A stretch of DNA of 21,180 bases from a virus: IMG/VR virus record IMGVR_UViG_3300038531_000172, positions 1 through 21,180 of that record, one strand, 5' to 3'. A program made the translations under genes and the position numbers. Position 1 is the stretch's first letter. Every line of letters starts with the position of its first letter. Positions 1 to 21,180 of this stretch are shown one piece after another. The notes beneath the pieces are model-generated. The model was not told the origin of the DNA. It searched no databases and saw nothing but the letters and a program-made list of their open reading frames with translations.

Positions 1-17
1 GTTTCCCAGTCACGATC
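1..17 (+). other. Amplification primer sequence at the contig end (artefact)
   Basis: The first 17 bases, gtttcccagtcacgatc, are identical as I recall it to primer B of the sequence-independent single-primer (random PCR) method used for viral metagenomes. It sits exactly at the contig edge, as expected for a read whose primer was not trimmed. Phage sequence probably begins at position 18, or a little further in if random bases of the companion primer mispaired. The tape-measure reading frame runs through it, but residues encoded here should not be trusted. Confidence 0.85.
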
Positions 18-2603: not shown

Positions 2604-2605
2604 AT

Positions 2606-3052
2606 TCAATATCCTATTTTACTCTTCTGGTAGTCACATCCGTCTGTAATGAGTATAGACTTAGTGGTTACCGACAAATCTATCAAGGTAGCCTTATCCT
2701 TATAACAACCATAAGTTAAGGGTAAACTAACCTCTCCTAAAAACTCCCACGTCCTGCACCCACATCCGGGGGCAGGCCCAGTTATCAAAAAGCCGTGTTC
2801 CAAACCCCCATGAAGGGGTTTGAGAACTAGCTTATCGTTTTCTTCGGACTCTACAAGTTGTTTTAACTTCATTAAGGTTTTGATGTTGTTGATACTCACA
2901 TCTACCAGTGAGGCTTTGACTGTCAAAGCCTCTGAGCCTATCGCAAAACTTATTCCACCAGAAGTCAGTCCTAAATTATGATACGACTTATCTTCCAATT
3001 GCACATGTACTTGGGCAGACCCCACACAAAAAGTATCTGTGAGATACGACAT
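2606..3052 (-). CDS. Tail protein, shorter paralogue of the tube-like protein
   Basis: 148 residues from ATG 3052 (MSYLTDTF), preceded by AAAGGA six bases upstream; an in-frame TTG two codons earlier is rejected. It shares spaced motifs with the product of 3775-4305: GLTSGG against GLTTGG near the N-terminus, TGPAPGCGCRTWEF against CGPSPGCGCRTWEF in the middle, and TDGCDYQ against TDGCTYQ near the C-terminus. The two are therefore duplicated copies of one fold that have diverged strongly elsewhere. The position between the tube-like gene and the chaperone suggests a minor tail or tail-tip component, or a second tube subunit. The cysteine pair in PGCGC could bind a metal or form disulfides. 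Paralogy is seen directly; the exact role is unknown. Confidence 0.65.
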   Translation of the reverse strand: MSYLTDTFCVGSAQVHVQLEDKSYHNLGLTSGGISFAIGSEALTVKASLVDVSINNIKTLMKLKQLVESEENDKLVLKPLHGGLEHGFLITGPAPGCGCRTWEFLGEVSLPLTYGCYKDKATLIDLSVTTKSILITDGCDYQKSKIGY

Positions 3053-3062
3053 CTTCAATCCT

Positions 3063-3329
3063 TTATCGATTTTTGGCTTCTTTTAATTGGTCCCTGATCC
3101 TGTCCATACAGTTCATGTATTTCAACGGTTCCACCGAAGTCTCACCGTTACGATACTCAGCAAGAAGAGCATCAAGCTCTTCTTGCGTCATATCAATTTC
3201 AAATTCAAACCAATAGACGGTCATTCGTCTATGGTCATTGACCCCTGCTTCAGAGATACCTAAGAATCGGACACTATCTTGAGACCAAAGAAAACTTGCG
3301 AATCGCATATCTTTAGTCTTGTAGTGCAT
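3063..3329 (-). CDS. Small unknown tail-region protein
   Basis: 88 residues, ATG 3329, starting one base after the stop of the upstream gene (TAAG-ATG), so it is probably translationally coupled. I do not recognise a family. It has an aromatic first half (FASFLWSQDSVRFLGI, VYWFEFEI) and a charged helical second half (TQEELDALLAEYRN, MDRIRDQLKEAKNR). It has no signal peptide, membrane segment or zinc motif. It lies in the tail gene run between two cysteine-rich proteins, so a tail or assembly role is likely but unproven. Confidence 0.6.
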   Translation of the reverse strand: MHYKTKDMRFASFLWSQDSVRFLGISEAGVNDHRRMTVYWFEFEIDMTQEELDALLAEYRNGETSVEPLKYMNCMDRIRDQLKEAKNR

Positions 3330-3330
3330 C

Positions 3331-3711
3331 TTAGTTCACCCTAGCAAAAGCTTGGTCAGCAACAACGGTTACTCCGAGAGAGACACCAGCAGGCTGGGAG
3401 TCAAACAAGAGAGTAGCGGTCTTGTCGCCAAAATTCCACTCAACGGTTGTAAAGCCGGTTCCGCACTCGCAACCAATGCTATCGCATTGACCCAAGAGGG
3501 CGGTTTCTCCAGCAGCATCCAATGCGGCTCGATTTGCATCGATCCAGTTTTGGATAGCCTTGCCAAGAACCATTCTCAGTTGGCGAGTCGTGGTCAGCAT
3601 GTTGCAACCATCGGTGAGGGTGAAAAGAACATTTGGGTCGGCGTCTGTAACTGCTACGTCAAACGTATCAATCCAGCAGCTACGACCATTACAAATAGAA
3701 ACTTCGGACAT
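3331..3711 (-). CDS. Cysteine-rich tail-region protein of unknown function
   Basis: 126 residues from ATG 3711 with a strong AAGGAAG site six bases upstream. No family is recognised. Six cysteines are visible, in SICNGRSCW at the N-terminus, LTDGCNM, GQCDSIGCECG in the middle. A helical stretch (LRMVLGKAIQNWIDANRAALDAA) is followed by a beta-rich end. The LTDGC segment faintly recalls the TDGC near the C-termini of the two tube-like paralogues. Location directly after the tube-like gene suggests a virion or tail assembly protein. A 63-base gap separates it from the upstream gene and holds only its ribosome site and a weak inverted repeat. Confidence 0.6.
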   Translation of the reverse strand: MSEVSICNGRSCWIDTFDVAVTDADPNVLFTLTDGCNMLTTTRQLRMVLGKAIQNWIDANRAALDAAGETALLGQCDSIGCECGTGFTTVEWNFGDKTATLLFDSQPAGVSLGVTVVADQAFARVN

Positions 3712-3774
3712 TTTTTACTTCCTTTGTGAATATCGAAAACCCCAAGTGGAGTTTAAAACGCAATCAAAAAAACT

Positions 3775-4305
3775 TTAGTTACAGGTGATACCTGCTTGGT
3801 ATGTACAACCGTCAGTAACGGTTCCAAAATTACCGGTCGAACAGTCGGCCAAAACCTCGAACTCTACTTCCATCTGAACAGCTTCAGTCTTGGTCATAGA
3901 ATACTCTGGTGAGGACGCAGAAACTACTCGGTCAAATTCCCATGTTCGGCAACCACAGCCCGGAGAGGGTCCGCAAATTACCATGGAAACTTCTGGCAGG
4001 AAACAAGCAGCATTGTAACCCAGCGACAACGAGGTAGCCGTAGTTAGGTTAGCTGCTGGCAATCCAAGAGCAATTCGGATTTGCTCCAGACTGACTTCCA
4101 GCAAAGTAGTTGTGATGAAGGCCCGTTGTGATTCTCGGAACTTACGAGCAATCCCCGGAATTTGGTCAGCCTCCACATCAATGAACGTATTGTCAAATCG
4201 AATAGTAGTACCACCCGTTGTCAATCCAACGTCAGAGCCATCGATACAAATCGTAGCTGCACCGATAGTGAGATTGTCTGGCGAGCAGTTGGGATTAAGT
4301 GCCAT
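3775..4305 (-). CDS. Major tail (tube-like) protein
   Basis: 176 residues from ATG 4305, with AAAGG about 11 bases upstream. The N-terminal part (DVGLTTGGTTIRFDNTF and DVEADQIPGIARKFRES) matches the pattern common to phage tail-tube subunits, where a Gly-rich strand is followed by a strand and a D-Q containing loop. An amphipathic helix follows (TTLLEVSLEQIRIALGL). It contains nine cysteines, including PGCGC, and a C-terminal TDGCTYQ shared with the paralogue at 2606-3052. Position between the tail terminator side and the chaperone/tape measure fits the major tube gene. The first 11 bases overlap the end of the HNH gene. Tube function is inferred from pattern and position, not from a database match. 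Confidence 0.7.
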   Translation of the reverse strand: MALNPNCSPDNLTIGAATICIDGSDVGLTTGGTTIRFDNTFIDVEADQIPGIARKFRESQRAFITTTLLEVSLEQIRIALGLPAANLTTATSLSLGYNAACFLPEVSMVICGPSPGCGCRTWEFDRVVSASSPEYSMTKTEAVQMEVEFEVLADCSTGNFGTVTDGCTYQAGITCN

Positions 4306-5203
4306 TTTTTGTTAAACCTTTATAGCTATGTTGACACGGAACTGAATAGTTGAAGTCACTTACTGAGAAAGGATGAATCTCATTATGACTAGCGCTATTG
4401 CAAGAATCATGCGCAACGTGTAAATTACACAAACAATAATACTTCTTCACCTCTTTCCAGCCTTTGGACTCCGAGACAGGAAAAATATGAGAAATATGCC
4501 AAATCTCATCTTCGTGGTTAATAGGTTCTTGGCAAATATGGCAACCCTGATGTAAGCAGTTTTCAAAGTGAATTAAGAGCTGTCCAAAGGTGTAGCCCAA
4601 TTCCTCAAACTCTAAATCAGTTTTACTAAATTTGCTCCTATTTTCCCACATGTAGTTGAGTGTATTCTTTATCTTAGTGTTCAGTCTGTTGGCCTCAGCC
4701 CTTTTAGGAGTCCTCAGCCTTGATCGTCTCTCAAGATATTTCAAATGTTCAGGTGTTTTTTCGTATTTAGTGGATGCCTCTGTGCCCGCCTTTTGGAATT
4801 TAGATCGAACACAGGTAACACAGTTTTTATCGGGTCTGTATAAGTTCTTTTGAACTTCGCCCACGTCCCCACAGTTTGGACACCACCTACAAACCTTCTT
4901 ATTGCTTTTCGGAGGCAAAAATTCTGGCAAGTACCCAAACCTATCTAGAGTTTCCTGTCGCAGGATATTACTAGCAGGCGACAAGTACTCTGGATTGTGC
5001 ATTGTAGGGATAACTGAAGTCCTGTTACAGTTTTGGCAACAGTAACTTTTCTTCAGTTTTCCGTTTGGTGCTTCGTGCGTTCCCTTGTACGTTCCTAGCC
5101 GCCCTAAACAGTGAACACAAAACCAATTTTTGTCTCTCTGACCGCCCCTAGGACCAACTAGAGGGTTATTCCAGCCGTCTAACAGTCTATTTTCGTGAGA
5201 CAT
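4295..5203 (-). CDS. Free-standing HNH endonuclease with zinc-ribbon arrays
   Basis: 302 residues, ATG 5203. The N-terminal half carries repeated Cys pairs: CVHC (29-32), CCQNC (55-59), CRWCPNC (105-111), CVTC (128-131), consistent with zinc ribbons that bind DNA. A basic linker follows (about 150-190). The C-terminal part has an HNH nuclease layout: CHIC (221-224), WHISHIFPVSES (His 236 and 239), then CLCN and NLHVAHDSCNSASHNE (about 257-275). Such genes in phages are usually homing endonucleases that spread by cutting an allele lacking them. It sits between the tail terminator and tube genes in the same direction, with a 9-base gap before it and an 11-base overlap after it. A role in packaging, as for some phage HNH proteins, is less likely this far from the terminase. 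Confidence 0.82.
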   Translation of the reverse strand: MSHENRLLDGWNNPLVGPRGGQRDKNWFCVHCLGRLGTYKGTHEAPNGKLKKSYCCQNCNRTSVIPTMHNPEYLSPASNILRQETLDRFGYLPEFLPPKSNKKVCRWCPNCGDVGEVQKNLYRPDKNCVTCVRSKFQKAGTEASTKYEKTPEHLKYLERRSRLRTPKRAEANRLNTKIKNTLNYMWENRSKFSKTDLEFEELGYTFGQLLIHFENCLHQGCHICQEPINHEDEIWHISHIFPVSESKGWKEVKKYYCLCNLHVAHDSCNSASHNEIHPFSVSDFNYSVPCQHSYKGLTKNGT

Positions 5204-5212
5204 GGAACTTAT

Positions 5213-5758
5213 TTAATCATCGGGACAATTATTACCGTAAGGCAAATCATCGTCAGTCGATGCTGCACAATTTTGAACATCTGGTTCCGTTTCCGTCCCA
5301 GTACAAGGGAAGGGGGCCCAGATCATTTCAATCAATATATCCTCTTTCCAAAGATCATCTGCTAAGAGTTCACCTTGTGGGGTGATTCTCCTCAGAAATC
5401 TACCTTCAGAATGAGTTATATTTGAGTCGGAAAAATTGTAGTAACTACAAACAGGGTCTAGCAAGTCCTCCATGTAATCAGCTATTTTCATAGCCAATGC
5501 ACGGTTAGTGCTGGACGCTCGGAATAGTACTACTGATCGCCTCCACGAGGATACGTCTTCTAACAGGGGTTCCGAGGTGACGATGCTGTAGCCCATATAA
5601 GGGCTTCTTTGTATTGTTGTTGGGCTGTCTGATCCTATGCGATATTCAGGATCATGTATTTCGCCTATTGCCTGATCGCCTACAAGAGCAACCAGAGTGG
5701 CGTCTGCCGCTAAGTCAGTGTAAATAGCGTTGTACAGGTTTGAATGGCCCCAACTCAT
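5213..5758 (-). CDS. Tail terminator / tail completion-like protein
   Basis: 181 residues from ATG 5758, which overlaps the stop of the upstream gp10-like gene (ATGA). The N-terminus (LYNAIYTDLAADATLVALVGD) resembles the start of phage tail completion proteins of the DUF3168 kind, where a first helix is followed by a short peptide discussing a variable loop and strands. Internal segments (VLFRASSTNRALAMKIADYMEDLL, then a strand with EDILIEMIWAPF) fit an alpha-beta fold of that size. The acidic C-terminal tail has three cysteines (VQNCAAS and NNCPDD among them). The order gp10-like, terminator, tube is standard in siphovirus neck regions and is the main support. Identification is moderate. Confidence 0.6.
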   Translation of the reverse strand: MSWGHSNLYNAIYTDLAADATLVALVGDQAIGEIHDPEYRIGSDSPTTIQRSPYMGYSIVTSEPLLEDVSSWRRSVVLFRASSTNRALAMKIADYMEDLLDPVCSYYNFSDSNITHSEGRFLRRITPQGELLADDLWKEDILIEMIWAPFPCTGTETEPDVQNCAASTDDDLPYGNNCPDD

Positions 5759-6276
5759 TTTCTAGCCCTCGTACCTGCAAACACAGAAACTTCAAGTTTC
5801 TGAATAACGTCTCTGAAAAAACCGTCCTTGGTTGCTTCCCACACAGGCAAAAGGACTGGGTGAGGTTCAGCGCCGTCTCTCCTCAGTTTCCTAGTGATGA
5901 GGTAGGCCTGTCTCTCAGCTTCTTTCCCTGTAACACCGTTCTTTATCTGCACCCATCTTAAAATCTTAGCGAAGATTGGGCTCTCTCGGTCTGATCCCAT
6001 CTCTAGGTTAAACCCGTATGGAACAAAGTAACCGAAAACTACTTCAGTCTCTCCCTCTCCAAATTTAAAAATAGGTCTAGCTTCGATACTATCGTGCAAC
6101 GTCTTGGTGAAAATGTGTCTGCCCTCAATTAGTTTTTTTCGTACTTGAGGTAAGACTTTTTGTTTCAGGGACCGTATTATCACTCCCTGCGGCTTCTCCA
6201 AAATATTGCTTTCTAGCCTAGCCAAGCGATTCAATACCGCAGTGTTTATGAAAGATAGCTTGATTTTTAGGGCCAT
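5755..6276 (-). CDS. HK97 gp10-like neck/tail component
   Basis: 173 residues from ATG 6276 (MALKIKLSFINTAVLNRL). The frame is open further up with only a TTG, but the ATG has AAAAGG upstream and is preferred. The layout fits HK97 gp10-family proteins, which join the neck and first tail parts: a basic helical N-terminal half (VIIRSLKQKVLPQVRKKLIEG), a central strand pair (VVFGYFVPYGFNLEMGSDRES) in place of the usual Y-x-x-x-x-E-x-G-T turn, and a C-terminal PHPVLLPVWEATKDGF resembling the family's 'P-x-L-x-P-A-x-E' end. It overlaps the preceding membrane-protein gene by 59 bases and the next gene by four. Confidence is moderate to good. Confidence 0.65.
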   Translation of the reverse strand: MALKIKLSFINTAVLNRLARLESNILEKPQGVIIRSLKQKVLPQVRKKLIEGRHIFTKTLHDSIEARPIFKFGEGETEVVFGYFVPYGFNLEMGSDRESPIFAKILRWVQIKNGVTGKEAERQAYLITRKLRRDGAEPHPVLLPVWEATKDGFFRDVIQKLEVSVFAGTRARK

Positions 6277-6595
6277 TAAACAGTGGACCTTTTTTGGGGG
6301 GAACAAACCATTTAGGTGGTGATTCGTTGGGGGCAAACCATGGGGGGAGCAGACTGAATTCTTCGTCCTCTTTTTGCCTGTTGGGCAACGAGTTTTGAAT
6401 ATCCTGCTTTCTTTTGTCCCAATATTGTTTGAATTCTTCTAGGGTTTGTCCGTTGAAACTCAGATTGAAATTCCAAATCCAATCCTTGCTGGATGTGTCA
6501 TACTTAACGCCTCCAGTTACCAACCCAATGGCGACGATACCAACCACTATAATGATGAACCCAATCACGGCGCGGTTGGTAATCAATGCCCACAT
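6218..6595 (-). CDS. Small single-span membrane protein, unknown
   Basis: 125 residues, ATG 6595, one base after the stop of the preceding gene. Residues about 9-29 form one clear hydrophobic helix (VIGFIIIVVGIVAIGLVTGG) with no cleavage motif, so it probably anchors the protein. The rest is soluble, with Trp-rich segments (DWIWNFNLSF; PPWFAPNESPPKWFVPP) and a basic end. The C-terminal 59 bases overlap the start of the gp10-like gene in another frame. A membrane protein inside the neck gene run is unexpected. Candidates include a holin-like or envelope-interacting protein, but nothing in the sequence decides this. Confidence 0.55.
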   Translation of the reverse strand: MWALITNRAVIGFIIIVVGIVAIGLVTGGVKYDTSSKDWIWNFNLSFNGQTLEEFKQYWDKRKQDIQNSLPNRQKEDEEFSLLPPWFAPNESPPKWFVPPKKGPLFNGPKNQAIFHKHCGIESLG

Positions 6596-6596
6596 C

Positions 6597-7283
6597 TTAA
6601 ATCCTCTGTAACTCGTCTATATCTTTCAATTCAACCTCAATCGAGGTGTAGGCCCAGTGACCATTGTTGTCAAGTTGATGCTTGTATTTGATTATCTCGT
6701 AATCAATTGGGGGCCCTGACAGTCGGATGAATTCCCAGTCTTCTGGGAAAGGGTAACACTTAATGCTCTCCTCTGGAGAGGACACTGGGAAACACCAATT
6801 ATCCCCTACAAACTCGTTACCATCTAAACACCATCCGTCAGGATCAGAGTAAGTTAGCGTATAACCTTCCGCCGATACGTATTGCTGTAGGCTTGCGTCC
6901 CACTCCAGTCTAACCTCACCTGCGCCAGTTAGAACCCAAACAAAAAATGCGAAAGCATTGTCAGGTGTATACACATTTGGCGGCGTTCCCCAATAGATCC
7001 TCAGAAAATCGCCTTGCCGTACTTTGTTTGGGATTCCTTGTACAGGCTTGAGTATTGTCCTTCGTTGTTTGCCGCTGTTCTTGCCGTTAACTCTAGGAGT
7101 TAAGTCGTTGACGTTAAATTGTCTCAGGTCCGTCACTCTCGCCGGAATCCGATTGTACAGTATCGTCTCCATACAAGACTTCTGTAAAATCCCCTGAACC
7201 ACTTGGTCCCCTTTCCTCACTATAGAAACTCTGTGGGGAAGTTGGGGAACTGGCAGGTAGCTCGTTGGAATCACTGAAGGCAT
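6597..7283 (-). CDS. Unknown neck-region protein, overlapping start
   Basis: About 228 residues if started at ATG 7283 (MPSVIPTSYLPVPQLPHRV), which has AGGGA about nine bases upstream. Other possible starts are ATG 7292, ATG 7172 (METILYNRIPARV) and GTG 7136; the last would nearly abut the upstream stop. No family is recognised. The body is mixed alpha-beta with many aromatic residues (GDFLRIYWGTPPNVYTPDNAFAFFVWVL broken here only in description; then GWCLDGNEFVGDNWCFPV with two cysteines) and a C-terminal strand-rich part. Neighbours on the downstream side are neck genes, so a head-completion or stopper role is possible. Depending on start, it overlaps the preceding gene by 23 to 179 bases in a different frame. 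Confidence 0.55.
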   Translation of the reverse strand: MPSVIPTSYLPVPQLPHRVSIVRKGDQVVQGILQKSCMETILYNRIPARVTDLRQFNVNDLTPRVNGKNSGKQRRTILKPVQGIPNKVRQGDFLRIYWGTPPNVYTPDNAFAFFVWVLTGAGEVRLEWDASLQQYVSAEGYTLTYSDPDGWCLDGNEFVGDNWCFPVSSPEESIKCYPFPEDWEFIRLSGPPIDYEIIKYKHQLDNNGHWAYTSIEVELKDIDELQRI

Positions 7284-7458
7284 TGATAACATCCCTATTT
7301 TTGTCGAGGTAAATCACAGGGGTGCCATCTGTGTAGTTTGCAGGTACTCGGAACCCCTCGGATACCAAGAACTCAGTTTCTCCAACAAACAGGTAATCAC
7401 CCGTCTTAACGTGCAAAACTTTTCCCTCTGGTACGAAAACATAGTGTTTAGTTGACAT
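7114..7458 (-). CDS. Small unknown protein with disordered acidic/Ser-rich tail
   Basis: 114 residues from ATG 7458; the ribosome site is weak. The first 55 residues look folded and beta-rich (HYVFVPEGKVLHVKTGDYLF, VGETEFLVSEGFRVPANY). The remainder is low-complexity Ser/Pro/Gly/Asp/Glu sequence (PASSPTSPQSF, SGDFTEVLYGDDTVQSDSG). The disordered half coincides with the region where the next gene may already be coding in another frame, which is a common pattern for overlapping genes. The function is unknown. It follows the secreted thioredoxin gene by eight bases and probably shares its transcript. Confidence 0.5.
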   Translation of the reverse strand: MSTKHYVFVPEGKVLHVKTGDYLFVGETEFLVSEGFRVPANYTDGTPVIYLDKNRDVINAFSDSNELPASSPTSPQSFYSEERGPSGSGDFTEVLYGDDTVQSDSGESDGPETI

Positions 7459-7466
7459 ATTGTTAT

Positions 7467-7907
7467 CTAACCGTTGTAGGGATTTAGCTGCGGTTGGCTA
7501 AGGAAATGGTCGAGAGAGTTATTGCCATAGACCACTCTTGTTAAAGTCCATGACACACTATCGTCTTTAACGACTCGCCGAACTACAACTGTTTGGGGAA
7601 TGCTTCTTCGCTGAACAGCGTTATTGCTTGCTTCCCATTCTTTGAAATACTCTATCCAGCTGTTGAACTTAGACCGGTTCACGGTTTGGTCGATGTAGAC
7701 AAAGTAAATCTCACCGGCATTGTGAGCTTTAACCAAGGCGGCCTTAATCTGCTCACACGCTGGGCACCATTCCGCACCCACTGTAACTACGATAGGTTTA
7801 TTATCCTCAGCAGACAACTCAATTGCTTCGCTGTAAGTAATTTGAGATTGAACTGGAGAAACAAACAACACTGTTAAAATCAACGGGAGGATTACTCGTC
7901 CGAACAT
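7467..7907 (-). CDS. Secreted thioredoxin-fold protein with WCPAC active site
   Basis: 146 residues from ATG 7907. The N-terminus is a standard signal peptide: basic start (MFGR), hydrophobic core (VILPLILTVLFV), then a likely cut after SPVQSQ near residue 22. The thioredoxin motif follows: VTVGAEWCPACEQIK with redox cysteines C48 and C51. A strand (EIYFVYIDQTVNRSK) and the loop Pro RSIPQTVVV (P104), which in this fold is the cis-proline next to the active site, complete the pattern. It would act outside the cytoplasmic membrane as a thiol reductase, oxidase or isomerase; the CPAC dipeptide does not settle which. Its start overlaps the end of the serine protease gene by 16 bases, so the pair is probably co-translated. 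A secreted thioredoxin in a phage structural operon is unusual. Confidence 0.85.
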   Translation of the reverse strand: MFGRVILPLILTVLFVSPVQSQITYSEAIELSAEDNKPIVVTVGAEWCPACEQIKAALVKAHNAGEIYFVYIDQTVNRSKFNSWIEYFKEWEASNNAVQRRSIPQTVVVRRVVKDDSVSWTLTRVVYGNNSLDHFLSQPQLNPYNG

Positions 7908-9391
7908 GCTAAGGCCCTCATTCTATTTTCATTTGTCAGGGCAAGTACAAAGAACAAGCTATTCCAAATGAAGTGGCGTACAAAAAAGAAAACAACCAAC
8001 CCAGCAACTATACTTAGCCAGACAACGTCTCTTTGAGAAATCCAAGGCGATTGTGCCTCGTCGTCTACTCCGTCGTCTGTGGAATCACCTTCTGGCGTTT
8101 CCTCGTCTGGGCTTTCTTCCTCCGAGTCGGGTTGTTGGGGCTCTTTGTCGGTATCGTCTTTTTTCTCAGGACTTTGGGGAAGCTCTGGTAGTTTAGGTCT
8201 CTCTGGAAATTTATGGGGAGGAGGATTAAAGGGGGGTGGCGCTCTTTCTTGTTCCTCGTCATTAGGTGTCTCAGGTTGTTCAGGTTCCTTGTCTTCCTCT
8301 GGTTGCTGTTCTGGCTGTTGAGGATCAGGAAACCTTCTCGGACCTTTAGGCGGGTCTATGTTGTTAAACAGGTCGTTAGGGTCGCCTTGTTGTCTTGGGG
8401 GTTGTTCAGGTCCGTTAGGATTTCTACGCCTGAACGGTGGGGCCCATTCTTGGGTCTCTACTCCAGAAATAGACTCCATATCTTCTGTGGTAATGGAGTA
8501 TTCCAAAGTGTAAGCTCGTTCCTGATAAAACGGCTCGTCCTCAAGCAAACAGTAGCTAGGATCTATTTGATTTTGTCTGAACAGTAGAGGGGCTCGGAAA
8601 GGCACTTCCGGGTTGATCAGGGGCTTTCCTCTTGCCAAAGACATTCGAACTATTTCGACATCTTCTTTACCGTAAGAAGTCCTACCTTTCATCCAGTCTT
8701 GGACTTCAAGGTAAGTCATTGCTATGCCGTGACCATCCGTCTCTGTTCGTCCGTCTTGACTGTGGTTCTCGCTGCTGGATCTCCAAGCAATAAGACCAAT
8801 TATTTTCTCTCCTCGGTAATCAAAAATAGGACTACCGCTTCGACCTCCGGCTGGCATCAACACAAAGTGAATAACATCGCCGGAACTCTGGTTTCGATCT
8901 ATGGCGTGGCCCTCAAAATTAGTTAGCCAGCTGCCTGCCGCACATCCAAAAGAGTACAGCCTCTCGAAAGACACTTTATCGCCCTCTTCGGCCAGAGGTA
9001 TGACTGTGGGCTCGTAGCCCAGCATGTCACTTTTCCGCACTTGAACTATGGCGATGTCCCGATACCTGTTTTGCTCCATCACTGTGTCGATTACGGTTCC
9101 ATTTACGGAACGGGAGAGGTAGCCTCTCCACCAAAACTGTATCTGAACTACAGCACCCCGTCGATTGCCCACCACATGCCCATTAGTCAACACGTAGTAG
9201 TTGGAGTCATCTTCGCGAAAAACACAGCCAGATCCGACAGCGTTATTCACCATTACTCTTACCGTGGCTTCTCGGCATCGTTCAAGGTTTGGGTCGTGCG
9301 TGAACAAGTCAGTTTGCGCCAGACCCACTTGACAAAAAAACTGTGTTACAGCTAGAACAACGAAAAAAGTGACGAAATTTATCGGTGACAT
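7892..9391 (-). CDS. Secreted, membrane-anchored trypsin-like serine protease
   Basis: 499 residues, ATG 9391. Residues 1-26 are a signal peptide (hydrophobic FVTFFVVLAVTQFF, likely cut after GLAQ). The protease domain (about 35-235) has a full chymotrypsin/HtrA-type triad: His72 in LTNGHVV, Asp112 in RDIAIVQV, Ser185 in GGRSGSPIF, with the substrate-pocket region IIGLIAWRS after it. No PDZ domain is visible. Residues about 310-440 form a low-complexity stalk rich in Pro, Glu, Asp and Gln. A C-terminal helix (VVWLSIVAGLVVFFFVRHFIW) would anchor it in the membrane, leaving a short tail inside. The topology thus displays a protease on a flexible stalk outside the cytoplasmic membrane. It overlaps the thioredoxin gene. 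Substrate is unknown; exclusion of other phages, receptor trimming and virion protein processing are all possible. Confidence 0.87.
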   Translation of the reverse strand: MSPINFVTFFVVLAVTQFFCQVGLAQTDLFTHDPNLERCREATVRVMVNNAVGSGCVFREDDSNYYVLTNGHVVGNRRGAVVQIQFWWRGYLSRSVNGTVIDTVMEQNRYRDIAIVQVRKSDMLGYEPTVIPLAEEGDKVSFERLYSFGCAAGSWLTNFEGHAIDRNQSSGDVIHFVLMPAGGRSGSPIFDYRGEKIIGLIAWRSSSENHSQDGRTETDGHGIAMTYLEVQDWMKGRTSYGKEDVEIVRMSLARGKPLINPEVPFRAPLLFRQNQIDPSYCLLEDEPFYQERAYTLEYSITTEDMESISGVETQEWAPPFRRRNPNGPEQPPRQQGDPNDLFNNIDPPKGPRRFPDPQQPEQQPEEDKEPEQPETPNDEEQERAPPPFNPPPHKFPERPKLPELPQSPEKKDDTDKEPQQPDSEEESPDEETPEGDSTDDGVDDEAQSPWISQRDVVWLSIVAGLVVFFFVRHFIWNSLFFVLALTNENRMRALACSDE

Positions 9392-9401
9392 TTTTTATCT
9401 C

Positions 9402-10481
9402 TTATGTGGATAATGCTCTGAACTCCCAGAGAGCCCTATTCAAAATATTGAAATCGGACAAACTAGTTCTCAGTTCTCTATTTTTGTTAGACAGTACCCC
9501 GTAGGTGCCTAGGGGCAAGATGTTGATATCTGCGTTTTCTTGAAAATTGGTCGAGGTTGTTACGTCACAGGTAGTTCGCAGATAATTATGAAGCTCAGAA
9601 TTCTCGCTTTTACTAATTATATTGATCTTGAACCTGATAGGCAAGTTTTTCGGACCAGAAAAAACAGCTAAATCGCACTTTTCTGGGCAAATGTCGTCAT
9701 ATTTCAGTGCTTTTTGGCTTATCTTTGCGTTCTCGTCCTCTGGGTCAAGAGAAAAGGACGGCTCGATCCCTGCCTTGTTGTAAGCTTTTACCCCCTCCAA
9801 TGAAGGGTATCTAGCTATTACAGCCTCTGGAGAAGTGCTGAAAAACAAGACTTTGCCCGGTATTAGACCAGTTCCAGCGACATGAGCAAACCCAGAATCA
9901 GTACCTATGAAATAACCACATCGCAGTAGAAACTTGGCCTGACCCTCCAAGGTCTCATCAGTATCAGAAAGCTTAAAAATATTAGTGGCGTTAAATCCAA
10001 ACTCATTTCTGGGCCCCAACCAAACCACTTTTTTTCCAGTCGCGGCCAGAGAGAACGCGAGTTTTTCCCACTCCTCGTTGTTCCAATGACGGTTAGGATT
10101 AGAGGCTCCGGGGTGGATTGCTACAGTGTCCTGCCAAACTCTTTCTGCCCCCTCAGGGAAAGACCAAAATCCGGGTTCCTTTACGGGCTTGCCTAACTTT
10201 TCTTCGGCGCATTGATAATAGTCATCTGTCCTAAGTGTTCTAGTCGTCGTCAAAAAACCCGCAAAGTTGATGACCTCGTCAAAAGTTCTGTAATATCCCA
10301 AGTTTCTCATCTTGTGGTCTGAGATGATCTTTTGATACCCCATGAAATTTCTCATTAAGGGCACCTGATGCTCTCTAACCACACCCACCAAGTTGCAGTG
10401 CATATAGTGGGGAGCTGCTGATCCTAAAGCTATAATTGCATCACCGATTCCGCCACTCATTTGAATAGCTACTTTTTTCAT
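9402..10481 (-). CDS. Glycosyltransferase family 9 (heptosyltransferase-like)
   Basis: 359 residues, ATG 10481. The N-terminal domain opens with VAIQMSGGIGDAIIALGSA, equivalent to the Gly-rich G-x-G-D loop of ADP-heptose:LPS heptosyltransferases. The second domain has VAIHPGASNPNRHWNNEEW (about 120-138) and FIGTDSGFAHVAGTG (about 192-206), the D-S-G-x-x-H-x-A nucleotide-sugar motif of this family. Beyond about residue 275 there is a C-terminal extension without recognisable motifs. Family 9 enzymes transfer heptose or related sugars in cell-surface polysaccharide synthesis. In a phage the product may alter the host surface or glycosylate a virion protein. It has no signal peptide, so it acts in the cytoplasm. 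It lies between the connector and protease genes with short gaps; its ribosome site is weak. Confidence 0.85.
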   Translation of the reverse strand: MKKVAIQMSGGIGDAIIALGSAAPHYMHCNLVGVVREHQVPLMRNFMGYQKIISDHKMRNLGYYRTFDEVINFAGFLTTTRTLRTDDYYQCAEEKLGKPVKEPGFWSFPEGAERVWQDTVAIHPGASNPNRHWNNEEWEKLAFSLAATGKKVVWLGPRNEFGFNATNIFKLSDTDETLEGQAKFLLRCGYFIGTDSGFAHVAGTGLIPGKVLFFSTSPEAVIARYPSLEGVKAYNKAGIEPSFSLDPEDENAKISQKALKYDDICPEKCDLAVFSGPKNLPIRFKINIISKSENSELHNYLRTTCDVTTSTNFQENADINILPLGTYGVLSNKNRELRTSLSDFNILNRALWEFRALST

Positions 10482-10505
10482 CGTAAATCTTTCTATCTTA
10501 AATTT

Positions 10506-11261
10506 TTAATGGTTGCAACCTTCTTTGCACCCACATTTGCCAGACGAACAACACTTGTTGCCTATTCCAAATAAAATACTACCGGCATGATTGTAGTAAG
10601 GAAAGATAAGTTGGTCTACTGCGGAAATTCCTGTGCCTCCAACTTCGTCAGAGCTTGCAGCATCATTACTGTACGAAATGGAGAAGTCTTCCCAGTCAAC
10701 ACGAGAAACATCTGAAGGTCTGACCAGTCCAGTGGAGCCCGGCTGTAGGCTTTCCCAAACCATAATAGCTACTGCCTTCTTAATGGCGTCTGGCATATCT
10801 ATGCCCCACTCGGCACACACCTCAATGTTCTCTGTCCCGCATGGCCAGAATTTCCCGCAATCTCTTTCCAACCAGTGACTAGTCTCGGCTAACTCGTAAT
10901 CTGTTACTGTGGTCCAAGTGTTCTCAGAATTCGAACCGCACTCACAAACTGCGCCACACTCACAGTTCTTGATACGAACGGAGGTCAAACTGTAGACGGG
11001 CTTACTTGTGGTAGGAAATAAAAACAAAGTGGATTTTCCGTTACCGTCTATCTTGTGGCAAACCTCACGAGGGCAAAACCATTGATTGGTCAGTTTTTCT
11101 ATAACGTCAATGGCTATGCAGATCTCTGTGTCGATGTGATCGTTAGAGCAGCACAACTCTTGTGTGGCACACCTAAAAGGGTAACCTGTAACGAAACTGC
11201 GCTCCAAGCAACAGGCATCACTATTGAAAGTGATTTCTGTACCTATATTAAACTCTGGCAT
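10506..11261 (-). CDS. Head-tail connector protein (gp6-like), extremely cysteine-rich
   Basis: 251 residues, ATG 11261, with AAGGTG about five bases upstream. The early part (DTEICIAIDVIEKLTNQWFC) and the segment IEVCAEWGIDMPDAIKKAVAIMVWE match the pattern of gp6-type head-tail connectors, which form the ring under the portal. The length is longer than most of this family because of inserted cysteine-rich loops. I count 20 cysteines, clustered as ACCLE, LCCSND, KNCECGAVCECGSN, and a C-terminal KCCSSGKCGCKEGCNH. Such spacing (CxC, CC) suggests disulfides or metal binding, unusual for a protein folded in the cytoplasm. It follows the repeat-like protein by eight bases. Confidence 0.75.
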   Translation of the reverse strand: MPEFNIGTEITFNSDACCLERSFVTGYPFRCATQELCCSNDHIDTEICIAIDVIEKLTNQWFCPREVCHKIDGNGKSTLFLFPTTSKPVYSLTSVRIKNCECGAVCECGSNSENTWTTVTDYELAETSHWLERDCGKFWPCGTENIEVCAEWGIDMPDAIKKAVAIMVWESLQPGSTGLVRPSDVSRVDWEDFSISYSNDAASSDEVGGTGISAVDQLIFPYYNHAGSILFGIGNKCCSSGKCGCKEGCNH

Positions 11262-11269
11262 AATTCACC

Positions 11270-12310
11270 TTAAGGGGCCGGAACCGTGATGGGAGTAGGA
11301 TTAGTAAACGTGAATCCGGCTTTCTTTACCCACATGTAATAATCATCTGGATCAAGTTGGAAAGCAGGGTCAATATTACCACTCGCATTGGTGTAACTCT
11401 GGGCGATCATATTAGTCCCGGCCAAATCAGTGGTAATAGTTACCTCTGCGTCAGCGACTGGAGTAGTTCCATCGGTTTCATAGATCTGAACTATATAGGT
11501 TTCGCTACCGTTACCACAGCATCCGCCGCCTCCGCCGCCTCCACCGGCAGGAGCATTTTCCAGAGCGTTGGTTGTAAATCGATACGTTCCGGCGTCATCT
11601 TCAAGCGTGTCGTCAAGCTTGTTCGCTATCGCTAGAATCGCGGCGACTTCCGTATCGATATAGTTTGCGATTGTTGTTAGGGTTACTGGTAGCGTCGTCC
11701 CGGTATCTGTCAAAACGTCGTCTATCGCTTGTAACAATGCCCCTGGCGTATCAGCCGTATCATGGTTCCCGCTTAACACGCGATCGAGAATGGCGTCCCG
11801 AATGGCTTCAAGCGCGTTCGCGTTCAACTTACTGGCTGTAAGCGAATCGTCATCAAGTCGCACTTGAGTGAGTGCATTGCCATTGGCTCCAATCCTTGCA
11901 AAACTGTCCCCTGTTTGTGCCGTATGCCCGTCCAGTGTGTTGACTTTGGTTACGTCTCCATCTGATTCAATTCCAAGGGATGAGAAGTTTGGCGGTCTGG
12001 TATTGATTACCGAACCACCCACTGTCACCAGTTGAACCCCTGCGGTTGAAGATTGAGCGTACCATTCAACGACATCACCATTTGTTTCTGCCTGAGTTGG
12101 GTCAAATTCGTAATAACCCTTGGCATTGGTCGCATCAATTTCCGCTGGATTGACATCGTTTGTCGCTGCAAGTGCTGCGTTATCAACTGCGGTTCTCGCT
12201 GTGATGTTTGCTGCGTCACCTGTTACCGGTTCGCCAGCATCCAATGAAGCGTGGCCAGCGTCTGCAAATGCAAATACTCGCACCTTTTGACTTGCTGTAT
12301 TTTTGAACAT
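11270..12310 (-). CDS. Probable virion accessory protein with poly-Gly hinge and beta-sandwich end
   Basis: 346 residues, ATG 12310, one base after the previous stop. The N-terminal region is beta-rich (VRVFAFADAGHASLDAGEPV; GYYEFDPTQAETNGDVVEWYA). The middle is helical with spaced Ala/Leu/Asp segments (LNANALEAIRDAILDRVLSG; TTIANYIDTEVAAILAIANKLDD), probably a coiled trimer. A run of eight glycines followed by CCGNG acts as a hinge. The C-terminal 75 residues (YIVQIYETDGTTPVADAEVTI, DYYMWVKKAGFTF) resemble a carboxypeptidase-regulatory or Ig-like sandwich. I recall similar proteins in marine phage genomes without a known function. Neighbouring the LamG gene, it could be a fibre or decoration. 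Function is inferred. Confidence 0.6.
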   Translation of the reverse strand: MFKNTASQKVRVFAFADAGHASLDAGEPVTGDAANITARTAVDNAALAATNDVNPAEIDATNAKGYYEFDPTQAETNGDVVEWYAQSSTAGVQLVTVGGSVINTRPPNFSSLGIESDGDVTKVNTLDGHTAQTGDSFARIGANGNALTQVRLDDDSLTASKLNANALEAIRDAILDRVLSGNHDTADTPGALLQAIDDVLTDTGTTLPVTLTTIANYIDTEVAAILAIANKLDDTLEDDAGTYRFTTNALENAPAGGGGGGGGCCGNGSETYIVQIYETDGTTPVADAEVTITTDLAGTNMIAQSYTNASGNIDPAFQLDPDDYYMWVKKAGFTFTNPTPITVPAP

Positions 12311-15747: not shown

Positions 15748-16854
15748 TTAGTATCCAGCAGTTCCGCCAGCAGCCGGGCTACGGAAGTCCGAGCCGTCGA
15801 TGGCATCTCCACAAGGTACTCGCTCAGTAGTGGTTCCGCAGCTTACGCAAGAGGCGTAAGGCTCTCCACAGAGACTGACGTTCTTAGCAAGAACAATCAT
15901 GTCAGTGTTTTCGATTTGGAAATCAGCATACCAGTGCATGGTGAATTCCCACTTATCGCAACGAGGAATTCGTTCCTTCTCTCGCTTGAACTCACGCATG
16001 ACGTAATAGATCAGGTTTTGCAGTGGAGTCAGTGCAATGACTGTTCCGTCATTAGCTGTTGATCCAATTGGCAAGTTGTCTGGCCATTGTGGAACTTCGA
16101 ACATCGGAATTCCCCATGGACCACGGACAGAGCCATCTTCCAAGAGACGGTCACCCAGATCGGTCTGTCGTTGGGACAGTTCAAACATCCAAGCGTGCAT
16201 TACGTTGGTTGCAACAACCCATCGATACTGAGGACGAGCCACATGGTATCGGGTTGGGATTCGCTTCAACATTTCGTAATACAGTTGACCCGATGGGCCA
16301 GCGCCTGCTGCGTCGATTTGCTGACAAGCCGGAACACAAGCACACATAATTTTCAACCAACCATCGTTGACTCCAAGCAGGTTGTTCTCATCCGTTTGGG
16401 CGTTACCCGTTGGGAGAGTGCTGTCGGATTCGATAGCGGCGAATTCCATGTCATTTGCAATTTGCGTTCGGAATTGGTTGACGAGAATGCTCTCGATTTG
16501 CTCACCAGCGTGATTACAATTAATGAAATCACTTGGAAGATCAAAAGCGGATCGATACTTCTCAAGATCATAACTAACCGTTCGCTCACTGGGGGCGTGA
16601 GTAGATGGGCAGCTAGTCGTTTGGGCACCTTGAGAAACAATTCGTCCCAAGTCCAATTTGGGAGTTTCACCTTTACAGTCTACAGTTCGCACGAGTCGTG
16701 CGGCTTTCAACAGTTTGGAGGTGTCTACCATCAGATCGATGAAACCGTCTGCTCGCTTACGATCAGCCATGCTGTTCGGCAGAGTCGTCTCATCCACTGC
16801 GACGTTGTTACAGTTCTTAGCTTCCAAAAGAAGCTGGTCGATTGTCTTAGACAT
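15748..16854 (-). CDS. Major capsid protein (HK97-fold)
   Basis: 368 residues, ATG 16854, with AAAGGA ten bases upstream. It follows the protease/scaffold gene by 36 bases, the standard place. Features typical of HK97-fold capsid proteins: an N-terminal helical arm (IDQLLLEAKN), the SYDLEKYRSAFDLPSDFI segment leading into the spine helix (IESILVNQFRTQIANDMEFAA), a TGNAQTDENNLLGVNDGW loop, the YYEMLKRIPTRYH helix, RWVVATNVMHAWMF, and the GPWGIPMFEVPQWPDNLP strand. Twelve cysteines are visible, among them CACVPAC and SCVSCGTT, unusually many for a capsid. No delta-domain needed as a scaffold is present; scaffolding is supplied by the upstream gene. A terminator follows the stop. Confidence 0.9.
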   Translation of the reverse strand: MSKTIDQLLLEAKNCNNVAVDETTLPNSMADRKRADGFIDLMVDTSKLLKAARLVRTVDCKGETPKLDLGRIVSQGAQTTSCPSTHAPSERTVSYDLEKYRSAFDLPSDFINCNHAGEQIESILVNQFRTQIANDMEFAAIESDSTLPTGNAQTDENNLLGVNDGWLKIMCACVPACQQIDAAGAGPSGQLYYEMLKRIPTRYHVARPQYRWVVATNVMHAWMFELSQRQTDLGDRLLEDGSVRGPWGIPMFEVPQWPDNLPIGSTANDGTVIALTPLQNLIYYVMREFKREKERIPRCDKWEFTMHWYADFQIENTDMIVLAKNVSLCGEPYASCVSCGTTTERVPCGDAIDGSDFRSPAAGGTAGY

Positions 16855-18413: not shown

Positions 18414-20153
18414 TTAGTCAACTTCCGGCAATTGTTGTGAAAGGCTTTCATTAGAAAGTCCCTTGTTTTCCGGGGGATTGTCATTACCACCCGGCATTGA
18501 ACTGGACATCTCATTAAAATCATCCACGAAAACTATTCCACCTTCTTTGGCGCGAATGAAAGCTCTGTCGCCTCCCTCGATGCGGCCCTGAATCTCTTCA
18601 ATTTGATTTCTGGCCTCGTTGAGAGTGTAAATACCTCGGTCCACGTAACCAGTTAAGATGTTCATTTCCATGAACTTATCTCGGATATCCAGAGGACTGA
18701 AGAAAGCTTTGACTTTGTTGATACCCAAACCCCTCTGGAAAAGCAGGTTTATGGATCTGGCCCAAATCTTTTGCAAGGGAGAAACAATGCGGTCCTTGTA
18801 AATCTCAGCTTGAGACAATCCTTTCCCAGATCCCAACTCTGATTGCTCACTGACTCCAGAGACGGCTGGGGGAATACCGTGGGCTTCTCGTATCTCTGCC
18901 GAACGATTCTTCTTGGTTTCCAAGTAATCAGATTCTTTACTATCTGCGTCGAGTCGTTCAAAACGAATTTTAACAGGCTTACTGCCTCGCCCTTGGGGCA
19001 CTTCCAAAACGGGGATGGCGTGAGAGTTTGATTTGATACTGGTTTCAAAGTACTTTTTGATCACCTCTTTTGTGTCTGGGCCAAGTTGACCACCTTCAAC
19101 AATGATAGCCCACCTTGGGATAGTGTAGTTCTCAAAGAAATTTAGCGACCAATTACTGATATGGATCTTTTCCATGATAGATGTGATGGCAGGAGTTACA
19201 TCAGGAAACCCATAGTAAATGGAGGCCGGGTGGTACTTCTGTAGATAGAGAATCTCGTTAGCACTTTTACTAAAGGCGTCAATAAATTGTCCAAGGGATT
19301 CACTGGAAAAGGTCAATGGCTTGCCGTCTTCTTGGCCCACTAAGTTCCATCGAAGATCAGCGTTCTCCATGGACAACTCACCATCAGCAGGGGAGTAAGG
19401 TTTAAGCACTCTTTCATCGGTTATCGGATTAACTTGCTCAGTTACTACCTTTGTACCGAAGGGCATGTAGTAGCGGTAGCTGTCGGTTGAGTCGTCAAGT
19501 ATTTCAACGAAACCTACTTTACCTCGTAGGACTCTCACTCTTGGGGCGGGCACATGGGCTAGGTGTTTGATTTTCATATCAGCGCCACGGATAACCTCAA
19601 TAGCACACCAGCCAATGGATTCGTAGTCTTTTGCCGCATTTTCCAAAACGGCTTGGAAACCGTCGTCGGGATTAGCGTCCTCAATAAAACACAGCACTTC
19701 TGAAAGCTCTGCGTTGTAGTCTTCTTCAGCGATCACTCCAACCGGAGCGTCACAGTCTTCGTCTAGATCAGACTTATTGGCTAAAGGTTGTGCTGGTTTA
19801 AACTCAAGCCCTCTGCCGACAGAGTCAGTAACCTTAGTTGTTACAGCTCTGAAGTGGGTAGGGTCTTTCGTCAATAGTCCCATCATTGCATAGGGATCAA
19901 AAGGCGGCTCTTGCACCTGCGTATCGCCAAAAATAAAACCCAAGTCAGCGTTGACTACATGGGACTCTCTTATCTCGGATTGAGACTGGGTAGAGCCATC
20001 CACACTCTTTTGAAGTTCTTCAATGCTCTCAATCGGAGTATAGTCTGTTCTTCGTTTTCTCTCAGATGCCAAGATGTCTTCTTTGGTTACTACCACAGCT
20101 TCATCTTTTTCATCCATAAGGATGTATCCTGAGATCTTTTCTTTATCACTCAT
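18414..20153 (-). CDS. Portal protein
   Basis: 579 residues from ATG 20153 (MSDKEKISGYILMDEKDEAV), which has GGGGA close upstream; an in-frame TTG four codons earlier is rejected. It overlaps the terminase stop by eight bases. Portal features of the PBSX/HK97 kind: HFRAVTTKVTDSVGRGLEF (about 130-150), the wing strands around IEVIRGADMKIKHLAHVPAPRV, YHPASIYYGFPDVTPAI (portal 'YG-P-P' segment) and the crown-region REAHGIPPAVSGVSEQSEL then GLSQAEIYKDRIVSPLQKIW. The portal ring is the channel for DNA at the head vertex. The last 80 residues are acidic and disordered, which is common at the crown. Its position between terminase and protease is standard. Confidence 0.9.
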   Translation of the reverse strand: MSDKEKISGYILMDEKDEAVVVTKEDILASERKRRTDYTPIESIEELQKSVDGSTQSQSEIRESHVVNADLGFIFGDTQVQEPPFDPYAMMGLLTKDPTHFRAVTTKVTDSVGRGLEFKPAQPLANKSDLDEDCDAPVGVIAEEDYNAELSEVLCFIEDANPDDGFQAVLENAAKDYESIGWCAIEVIRGADMKIKHLAHVPAPRVRVLRGKVGFVEILDDSTDSYRYYMPFGTKVVTEQVNPITDERVLKPYSPADGELSMENADLRWNLVGQEDGKPLTFSSESLGQFIDAFSKSANEILYLQKYHPASIYYGFPDVTPAITSIMEKIHISNWSLNFFENYTIPRWAIIVEGGQLGPDTKEVIKKYFETSIKSNSHAIPVLEVPQGRGSKPVKIRFERLDADSKESDYLETKKNRSAEIREAHGIPPAVSGVSEQSELGSGKGLSQAEIYKDRIVSPLQKIWARSINLLFQRGLGINKVKAFFSPLDIRDKFMEMNILTGYVDRGIYTLNEARNQIEEIQGRIEGGDRAFIRAKEGGIVFVDDFNEMSSSMPGGNDNPPENKGLSNESLSQQLPEVD

Positions 20154-21180
20154 CACTTTCCCCAATTATGTAAGCCTTGCAAGTGTTTAGTCCATCTTCT
20201 ATGACATACTCCGATGCCAGTAAATCGTAAACATCTGCGTGTCGGCAATGGTCAGGTTTACCTACCCAAGAATATTTGATTTTCATGTCGTTAGTTTCTG
20301 TGGCCTGTCTTTTTGGTTTGGTCATTTCCTGAACAAACTCACCAGCAAGAACTGCGTCATAATTTTTCGGCAAACGGTTTCTTCCAGACTTTAGCCTAGC
20401 GTAAGCGCGGTCCATTACCTCAGTTCTGTCCACTGAAATGATCATGTCCACTTCGTTTTCTTTTTGAACCCTCTCAGATCCAATACCTAAATATTTGCAG
20501 AACCACACATCGTTTTTCAACAACTCTCTCAAGTCATTCACGTAGTTGGTTTCGGGGCCTATGTCCACGACCGTTGTCTTTACGTTAAATCTTTCCTCAA
20601 GCTCAGCTACGTACTGTTTGTTGGAGGCGTCCACTTTTCCGAAGTAAACTGCGTCTCGATTGGTGCCTACTGGGTAGGATATTCGGATGTCCAGCACAGT
20701 TCCGTTAATGTCTATTCCCATTGAGCATGGGCCTTTATGTTTGTTTTCCTTGACATACGCTTCGTTGTCTGTTATAGTGAATTCGGGCAACTTGGCGTTC
20801 TTAGCTAACAAAGCATCTGATAAGTTATTAGTGACTGACGTGAAAGGCCAACCCAAGCGACGATTGTAGAAATCCTTCATCTTTGTGGGATCGTTTATAG
20901 CTTCTTTGAATTCGGACCAAAGCTTAGCTACACTCGTCATTTTGCTGCACAGCGAGGGGACGTGGTAACCTTCCATTTTGTTGTCAGGCTTCTCTGCAAT
21001 CCACTCACTGTCGGGGGAAAACCGATCAATTTCCCCTGTCTTACAGTGGGGGCAAAGTAATTTGATATCCCGGCCACAACCTCTTTTCCACTCAGTATCT
21101 AGCAAACGATAATCTAAGACGTTTCCATCTTTATCGGTGATCTGCTCTACGGCGAGTGTCAGAAAATCTAGCTTGGATTT
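20146..21180 (-). CDS. terL: Terminase large subunit, nuclease half (partial, N-terminus missing)
   Basis: 344 codons remain; the frame is open to the window edge, so the ATPase domain lies outside. The visible part begins just before a Cys pair (LLCPHCKTGEIDRF), as in GpA-type terminases, then DFYNRRLGWPFTSV, which corresponds to the 'F-x-N-x-x-L-G-x-P' linker. The RNase H-like nuclease has its acidic residues in SMGIDINGTVLDI, TTVVDIGPETN and HCRHADVYDLLASEY. This enzyme pumps DNA into the prohead and cuts the concatemer. TGA at 20148-20146 overlaps the portal start. A TTG at 21105 is an internal codon, not the start. Confidence 0.9.
   Translation of the reverse strand, partial: KSKLDFLTLAVEQITDKDGNVLDYRLLDTEWKRGCGRDIKLLCPHCKTGEIDRFSPDSEWIAEKPDNKMEGYHVPSLCSKMTSVAKLWSEFKEAINDPTKMKDFYNRRLGWPFTSVTNNLSDALLAKNAKLPEFTITDNEAYVKENKHKGPCSMGIDINGTVLDIRISYPVGTNRDAVYFGKVDASNKQYVAELEERFNVKTTVVDIGPETNYVNDLRELLKNDVWFCKYLGIGSERVQKENEVDMIISVDRTEVMDRAYARLKSGRNRLPKNYDAVLAGEFVQEMTKPKRQATETNDMKIKYSWVGKPDHCRHADVYDLLASEYVIEDGLNTCKAYIIGESDE

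Follow-up and report, generated by a model that had tools for sequence, protein, structure and literature searches.

Why should a tailed phage keep, among the genes that build its particle, two genes whose products look fit for export to the host envelope? The question is raised by the IMG/VR virus record IMGVR_UViG_3300038531_000172, an uncultivated tailed-phage fragment whose positions 1 to 21,180 (21,180 bases; the whole stretch analyzed, called here the window) carry a structural operon on the minus strand. Inside this operon, a gene for a thioredoxin-fold protein overlaps a gene for a trypsin-like serine protease with a long stalk and an anchor-like C-terminal stretch. An earlier reading of this DNA from its letters alone (the sequence-only reading) knew of no described system with this layout, and we too found no description of an exported thioredoxin and an exported protease encoded together by a phage in the one open-access literature library that was searched. 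Our preferred answer, which we hold tentatively, is that the pair is expressed late, is directed to the envelope, and reduces proteins there before cutting them, most likely aiding the release of particles. The parts of the pair, with the evidence for each, are these:

7467..7907, minus strand: exported thioredoxin-fold protein, 146 amino acids, WCPAC, ATG start (Pfam, phrog, alignment)
7755..7766, minus strand: thioredoxin active site C48-P-A-C51 (sequence)
7845..7907, minus strand: probable signal peptide at the hydrophobic thioredoxin N-terminus, residues 1-21 (hydropathy peak at 1-19, mean 2.05)
7892..7907, minus strand: 16-nucleotide overlap of the thioredoxin and protease genes (coordinates of the open reading frames, ORFs)
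7892..9391, minus strand: exported trypsin-like serine protease (HtrA/DegS-like fold) with stalk and C-terminal anchor, 499 amino acids, ATG start (PF13365, fold comparison)
9317..9391, minus strand: probable signal peptide at the hydrophobic protease N-terminus, residues 1-25 (hydropathy peak at 2-20, mean 1.72)
9176..9178, minus strand: catalytic His72 (sequence, TNGHVV)
9056..9058, minus strand: catalytic Asp112 (sequence, RDIAIV)
8837..8839, minus strand: catalytic Ser185 (sequence, GGRSGSP)
8042..8446, minus strand: stalk rich in Pro, Glu, and Asp, residues 316-450 (52% P+E+D)
7934..8026, minus strand: C-terminal hydrophobic anchor, residues ~456-486, broken by R472-H473 (hydropathy, sequence)

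The thioredoxin matches PF13899 (Thioredoxin_7) with an E-value (E) of 4.9e-6 and 27 bits, exactly the cut-off of 27, and phrog_22 (thioredoxin domain) at E 1.8e-4; against PF00085 it stays under the cut-off (E 8.5e-5; 22.9 bits vs 23.5). The hallmarks of the superfamily, a CxxC motif and the conserved cis-proline position, are present, and C48, C51, and P104 form the three invariant columns in an alignment of 16 exported thioredoxin-like phage proteins. C48 and C51 are its only cysteines. With its hydrophobic residues 1-19, the protein probably carries the signal peptide that the sequence-only reading had assigned to it, and the active site is complete, as that reading stated. It resembles the exported proteins of the Thioredoxin_7/DsbE/DsbD type in its export-like N-terminus, CxxC, and P104, and differs from them in its WCPAC and in a Pfam score that only equals the cut-off. 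Disulfide exchange is its predicted activity.

The protease matches PF13365 (Trypsin_2) clearly (E 5.5e-14; 53.6 bits vs a cut-off of 27.6), and its triad, H72/D112/S185, appears complete at the expected motifs; the hydrophobic stretch at residues 2-20 likewise agrees with the signal peptide claimed earlier. The structure prediction of the domain returned HtrA/Deg-type folds, though from a low-confidence model (mean predicted local distance difference test, pLDDT, 52.6). With this low-confidence model, Foldseek ranks DegP (E 2.7e-8), MarP/Rv3671c, DegQ, and DegS at the top (E 2.7e-8 to 1.2e-7), and VIA-align gives Z 16.2 for DegS (178 residues aligned, root-mean-square deviation 3.8) and Z 16.0 for Rv3671c (167 residues). 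Pfam and the modeled fold together would place the protein with the HtrA/DegS/MarP group of trypsin-like proteases. Like the HtrA/Deg family (S1C; DegS, DegP, MarP/Rv3671c), it has a trypsin-like domain that is probably extracytoplasmic, an H-D-S triad, and a fold score of about 16. Unlike that family, it lies in a phage structural operon and has a C-terminal anchor on a 135-residue acidic and proline-rich stalk; no PDZ domain was detected by Pfam at E 0.1, and the low-complexity stalk occupies that place. The NCBIfam HtrA cut-offs are not reached, the best being TIGR02037 with 18.9 bits vs 416. The stalk and anchor of the sequence-only reading stand as described; hydropathy alone places the C-terminal stretch at 451-469, and a short tail follows the anchor. 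Given a cleaved signal peptide, the protease would sit outside the cytoplasmic membrane, to judge from its hydropathy. A PADLOC match to the protease-type effector LmuA of Lamassu (E 5.8e-11, residues 37-207) reflects the shared trypsin-like domain; we rejected Lamassu membership, for which a cytoplasmic LmuA should share an operon with its partner LmuB, because the annotated neighbors are structural or unrelated, no other Lamassu component was seen by inspection, and the N-terminus of this anchored protease is export-like.

The kinship with HtrA invites a different interpretation, namely that the pair is a periplasmic quality-control or oxidative-stress aid that keeps the host envelope working during replication. 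The HtrA/DegS-like fold and the sub-cut-off NCBIfam HtrA matches fit this idea, and PMC6802176 discusses phage thioredoxins as a defense against reactive oxygen. We nevertheless judge it unlikely: a PDZ domain was not detected, the length of the stalk and the anchoring at the C-terminus set the protease apart from HtrA, the genes sit among late structural genes, and the partners of exported thioredoxins in other phages are HExxH, CAP, and M28 proteins, not HtrA.

The leading rival concerns the protease itself, whose cysteines lie at residues 20, 39, 56, 150, 281, and 496. The thioredoxin may serve its neighbor specifically, as a disulfide foldase or a redox switch, acting on Cys39, Cys56, Cys150, and Cys281 to fold or activate it after export, in which case no reduction of the envelope would be needed. 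These four cysteines in the extracytoplasmic part, the overlapping genes, and a CPAC site that fits an oxidase or isomerase are in its favor, as is the presence of MarP, whose activity depends on a disulfide, among the best fold matches (Rv3671c). Against it, other phages have the trypsin at a greater distance from the thioredoxin, and the neighbors of many exported thioredoxins in phages are quite different proteins (HExxH, M28, CAP). We regard it as possible but doubtful.

The 16-base overlap and the position of the pair within the structural operon were confirmed on the minus strand. As a sign of a special unit the overlap was rejected: such overlaps are common in the operon (20 nucleotides for terminase large subunit/portal, 22 for the receiver gene and the next gene, and 11 for the HNH-like gene and tail protein), very short gaps are frequent too, and the overlap is therefore uninformative alone. 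The GC content at third codon positions (0.45 for the protease, 0.47 for the thioredoxin) is like that of the neighbors and gives no sign of very recent acquisition.

A close relative of the pair outside its own sample was not found in scans of IMG/VR, isolate phages, and plasmids. When IMG/VR was scanned with one protein at a time (protease, thioredoxin, capsid protein, full terminase), same-sample contigs alone were returned. In isolate phages and plasmids, tblastn gave no match for the thioredoxin and one weak Staphylococcus match in each collection for the protease, the plasmid one annotated as "PDZ domain-containing protein". A degenerate serine-motif pattern found the window's own contig in IMG/VR plus L138 (L and G numbers are locus and record labels), which was judged a chance match; in GTDB genomes it gave five Acidobacteriota matches, of which L140, L142, and L144 are trypsin-type ORFs in frame and two are not. 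Since no thioredoxin partner was seen at these matches, they carry no information on the host.

The kind of pairing, as distinct from this particular pair, does recur. A pattern scan and an alignment-based scan of uncultivated phages yielded other exported thioredoxins, whose matches beyond the window's sample are weak (24-47% identity over short stretches); they are thus the same kind of protein rather than close homologues. A loose WCPAC pattern was set aside, since most of the matches listed were short, resembled glutaredoxins, and had no export features at the N-terminus. The exported thioredoxin of L156 is one gene (0.6 kilobases, kb) away from an exported trypsin that ends, as in the window, in a transmembrane segment of its own. 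In L132 and L163, the exported trypsin is 1.8 and 1.9 kb away, two to three genes off, and, unlike in the window, the transmembrane part is a small separate protein encoded between them. All three differ from the window in their one to three intervening genes, in a classic trypsin motif (GDSGG), in the lack of such a stalk, and in belonging to different, mostly large phages. The trypsin of L132 has no match among 50,697 isolate phage records, and BLASTP of the window protease against the phage trypsins L169, L171, and L172 gave nothing significant.

Nine further records (L148, L149, L151-L155, L157, L158) resemble the window in arrangement: the thioredoxin gene overlaps, by 16-28 nucleotides, the gene of an exported HExxH protein, a putative peptidase, although the order is reversed (thioredoxin first). 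A CAP-like gene comes next after the HExxH gene in several of these loci (PF00188 E 1.5e-16, tested in L148), and an M28 peptidase stands beside the thioredoxin in L148 (E 3.8e-36) and L158 (E 1.8e-41). Elsewhere, L136 has a Trypsin_2 protease 9 kb away, counted against close linkage, L134 has an M15 endolysin (phrog_894 E 1e-35) about 0.8 kb from the thioredoxin, L013 and L061 have no export-like neighbor beside it, and a search with the thioredoxin of L150 gave four weak matches.

The HExxH family (L148:10309-11097 and relatives) has an invariant HExxH and a conserved DEW[ST]AY stretch in seven aligned members. Although the model is confident (pLDDT 86.9), the family matches neither Pfam nor, by Foldseek, the PDB (best E 0.5), and we therefore call it a putative peptidase. 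A hidden Markov model of the family found 10 of 27 records, the nine known ones plus G004 (8737-9105; E 3.8e-20), where the ORF is lipoprotein-like and exported-looking, with HEGTH and the DEWTAY stretch. G004 also carries, not adjacent to it, a lipoprotein-like exported thioredoxin (L014); the terminases of G004 and the window are distantly related (E 8.9e-10), and G004 is a different phage type from the nine. Two types of phage thus combine an exported thioredoxin with a member of the exported HExxH family.

The association was also counted. Besides two records belonging to the window, the test set of 28 held 26 viral records selected for an exported thioredoxin (2.33 Mb); the control held 28 IMG/VR contigs from the motif scans plus five isolate phages (1.33 Mb). 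The control contigs among L016-L092 were inspected and held glutaredoxin-like, cytosolic-looking, or unrelated motif matches, and the other 14 came from L093-L125. The trypsin family PF00089 matched 15 of the 28 records, 13 of them over the cut-off and none of these 13 the window's; over the cut-off, this is 13/26 exported-thioredoxin records vs 0/33 controls (Fisher p 2.6e-6, kinship ignored). PF13899 matched 21/28, PF04389 (M28) 2/28, and PF13365 14/29. Among records longer than 60 kb, a trypsin occurs in 11/14 (all except G004, G008, and G019), and in 10/11 of those with a PF13899 match at E 0.01 vs 0/5 controls (Fisher p 0.0014, again ignoring kinship). Export-like ORFs make up 17 of the 75 adjoining the thioredoxin, compared with 11.6% of random ORFs of the same loci (p 0.0012, within-locus permutation), and with one locus per family and the window excluded the figures are 9/40 and 9.1% (p 0.0022). 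This test scored 19 of 21 loci, L084 and L020 being dropped because the ORF filter hid their thioredoxins, and its crude hydropathy flag missed the HExxH neighbors of L149 and L154 and the thioredoxin of L014.

Which hosts do these phages infect? DUF1559 (PF07596) is found in 7/29 records, which is 7/26 of the non-window records, and in 0/14 control genomes. Because DUF1559 has been reported as exclusive to bacteria of the Planctomycetes-Verrucomicrobia-Chlamydiae (PVC) group, the large phages with an exported thioredoxin and a trypsin are probably phages of PVC bacteria. An older paper, PMC2754498, describes the planctomycete wall as "a protein sacculus with disulfide bonds" and as lacking peptidoglycan. 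Searches of the records for two peptidoglycan-hydrolase families found PF01520 in 0/27 and PF08291 in 1/27. The peptidoglycan-lacking view of this wall has been revised by later work.

On our preferred reading, the exported thioredoxin would act outside the cytoplasm, exchanging and opening the disulfides of proteins there; the HtrA/DegS-like protease, tethered through its C-terminal anchor to the outer side of the cytoplasmic membrane and extending on its stalk, would cut proteins once their disulfides were opened; and a protein-rich, disulfide-bonded envelope would be weakened late in infection, helping particles out. The proposal of the sequence-only reading that the pair reduces and then cuts thus keeps indirect support, from the recurrence with exported peptidases and from a precedent: PMC3446894 describes degradation of PsbO by a Deg/HtrA protease after reduction by thioredoxin. 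That case is alike in that an HtrA-family protease cuts after a thioredoxin reduces the substrate, and unlike in that it concerns the cyanobacterial/plant lumen, separate genes, and a thioredoxin reductase system in vitro. The recurrence in other uncultivated phages strengthens the envelope-active reading of the pair, and the possibly oxidizing CPAC weakens the reducing step.

Several points weigh against this preferred reading: (i) CPAC, with its proline first, is closer to DsbA or glutaredoxin than to a reducing thioredoxin, and no phage gene that would supply electrons, such as a DsbD-like one, was seen in the window contigs; (ii) the same pair was found in no relative of the window, which leaves a single instance of the linkage in this phage type; (iii) three records have thioredoxin and trypsin 0.6-1.9 kb apart, but nine have them separated by ~9-30 kb and one (G016) by 272 kb; (iv) L146, L147, and L150 have an exported thioredoxin without a peptidase nearby; (v) G013 has an M15 peptidoglycan endolysin near its thioredoxin, so lysis may be achieved by something other than protein digestion; (vi) DUF1559 is present in 0/3 window contigs, which are fragments; and (vii) the records share neighboring genes and probably represent mainly one broad group of large phages, a kinship that makes the p-values overstate independence, and the controls are unmatched for host or size.

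We can extend the reading further, as a speculation of rather low probability: phages whose hosts have a wall of disulfide-bonded protein (planctomycetes and allies) may repeatedly have assembled kits of an exported thioredoxin and an exported peptidase of any clan (HtrA-like, classic trypsin, HExxH, M28), which would open that wall at release as endolysins open peptidoglycan. Were this true, the overlapping, membrane-anchored pair of the window would be the most compact version.

The surroundings of the pair bear on two more alternatives. Pfam and phrog profile searches of the window proteins identify the minus strand as a structural operon. Besides the genes listed below with their positions, it includes those for the terminase large subunit (phrog_675 E 1.6e-30) and a laminin-G-type protein (PF13385 E 6.4e-24), as well as further tail genes. 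The members with positions are:

18414..20165, minus strand: portal protein (PF04860 E 7e-20; phrog_12 E 1.2e-32)
16891-18375, minus strand: S78-like head protease candidate (PF04586 E 0.0016, below cut-off)
15748..16854, minus strand: major capsid protein (phrog_1623 E 3.3e-49)
10506..11261, minus strand: head-tail adaptor, upstream of the island that holds the pair (phrog_442 E 7.4e-13)
9402..10481, minus strand: glycosyltransferase family 9 (GT9)-like gene, directly upstream of the pair (PF01075 E 8.4e-8)
3775..4305, minus strand: tail/Ig-domain protein, downstream (phrog_2175 E 1.3e-10; phrog_885, major tail protein, E 4.4e-5)

Next after the GT9-like gene comes the pair, with the head-tail adaptor on one side and, on the other, small genes that precede those of the tail. 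The GT9-like, protease, and thioredoxin genes look like a cargo island in a late operon, with the GT9-like gene a possible third member. Such a place between head-tail adaptor and tail genes could suit a virion or assembly protein, for example a processing enzyme for head or tail proteins; we consider this very improbable, given the export-like N-termini, the anchored protease, and the separate S78-like candidate for a head protease. The sequence-only reading had also offered superinfection exclusion or receptor alteration, in which the anchored protease would cut surface receptors or incoming tail proteins. Display at the cell surface is plausible, the GT9-like gene may be surface-modifying, and T4 has a periplasmic exclusion protein, Spackle, according to PMC7677548; however, the genes belong to the late structural operon and not to an early module or a lysogenic one, the literature searched yielded no phage-encoded exclusion protease, and nothing specific in the sequence points to either role, which leaves this explanation quite improbable.

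The layout is no accident of one contig, since a second IMG/VR contig of the same metagenome spans window positions 16-11546 at 99.97% identity with the same arrangement. In all, two further contigs from this metagenome overlap the window with 99.97-100% identity and reach beyond it at both ends; a long tape-measure-like ORF begins in the window and its rest is found in a sister contig. The 17-base tag GTTTCCCAGTCACGATC or its complement caps the start of the window (1-17) and both ends of both sister contigs (L042 1-17 and 14396-14412; L139 1-17 and 14988-15004). We take this tag to be a random-PCR (polymerase chain reaction) primer, so that those contig ends would be library artefacts and not termini of the phage genome. 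The nearest isolate phages share only ~21-28% identity, in portal and capsid.

Other genes of the window deserve mention. Within the structural operon, a stand-alone response-regulator receiver-like gene (14334-14648; PF00072 E 1.2e-6, just under the cut-off) overlaps an ORF (13888-14355) with a transmembrane segment, a coiled-coil look, and faint Rz-like spanin similarity. No endolysin or holin was recognized beside the pair in this incomplete genome, the Rz-like similarity at 13888-14355 being weak (E 0.04-0.08). Between tail genes, a gene at 4295-5203 resembles an HNH endonuclease by eye, without a Pfam match.

The other phages offered observations of their own. L148 encodes, directly upstream of its exported thioredoxin, another exported protein of thioredoxin-like type, whose C-terminal tail is rich in cysteine (L148:9366-9851; PF13098 E 4.2e-8). 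In several large phages, an exported trypsin adjoins a subtilisin-like protease without an export signal (L161:1984-2898, L167:906-1817, L168:2535-3467, L169:2604-3527, L170:1007-1909), a second recurrent protease pair, identified in L161 by phrog_3677 (E 4.9e-78) and in the others by eye. A protein with a signal peptide, a proline-rich stalk, and a transmembrane segment is encoded near the terminase in two phages whose WCPAC thioredoxin is lipoprotein-like (L084:107-2064, L014:9419-11904). L084 also encodes a lipoprotein that looks papain-like by eye; a "C39/NlpC-like" reading of two L084 proteins, likewise by eye, was dropped, as Pfam gives a sub-cut-off C92 match (E 0.056) for one of them and only a lipoprotein-signal match for the other. 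L014:2-3855 holds long collagen-like ORFs with G-A-T-G-P/S repeats.

We would rate the pair among the phage accessory enzymes that act on the envelope. Most of the enzymes with which phages are known to attack the envelope hydrolyze peptidoglycan or disrupt membranes, and a redox-plus-protease pair in a phage would be a different chemistry on the host envelope. The two enzymes are small and testable, and the recurrence in unrelated uncultivated phages opens comparative genomics as well as bench work. The pair would suggest how phages handle bacteria whose walls are rich in disulfide-bonded protein.

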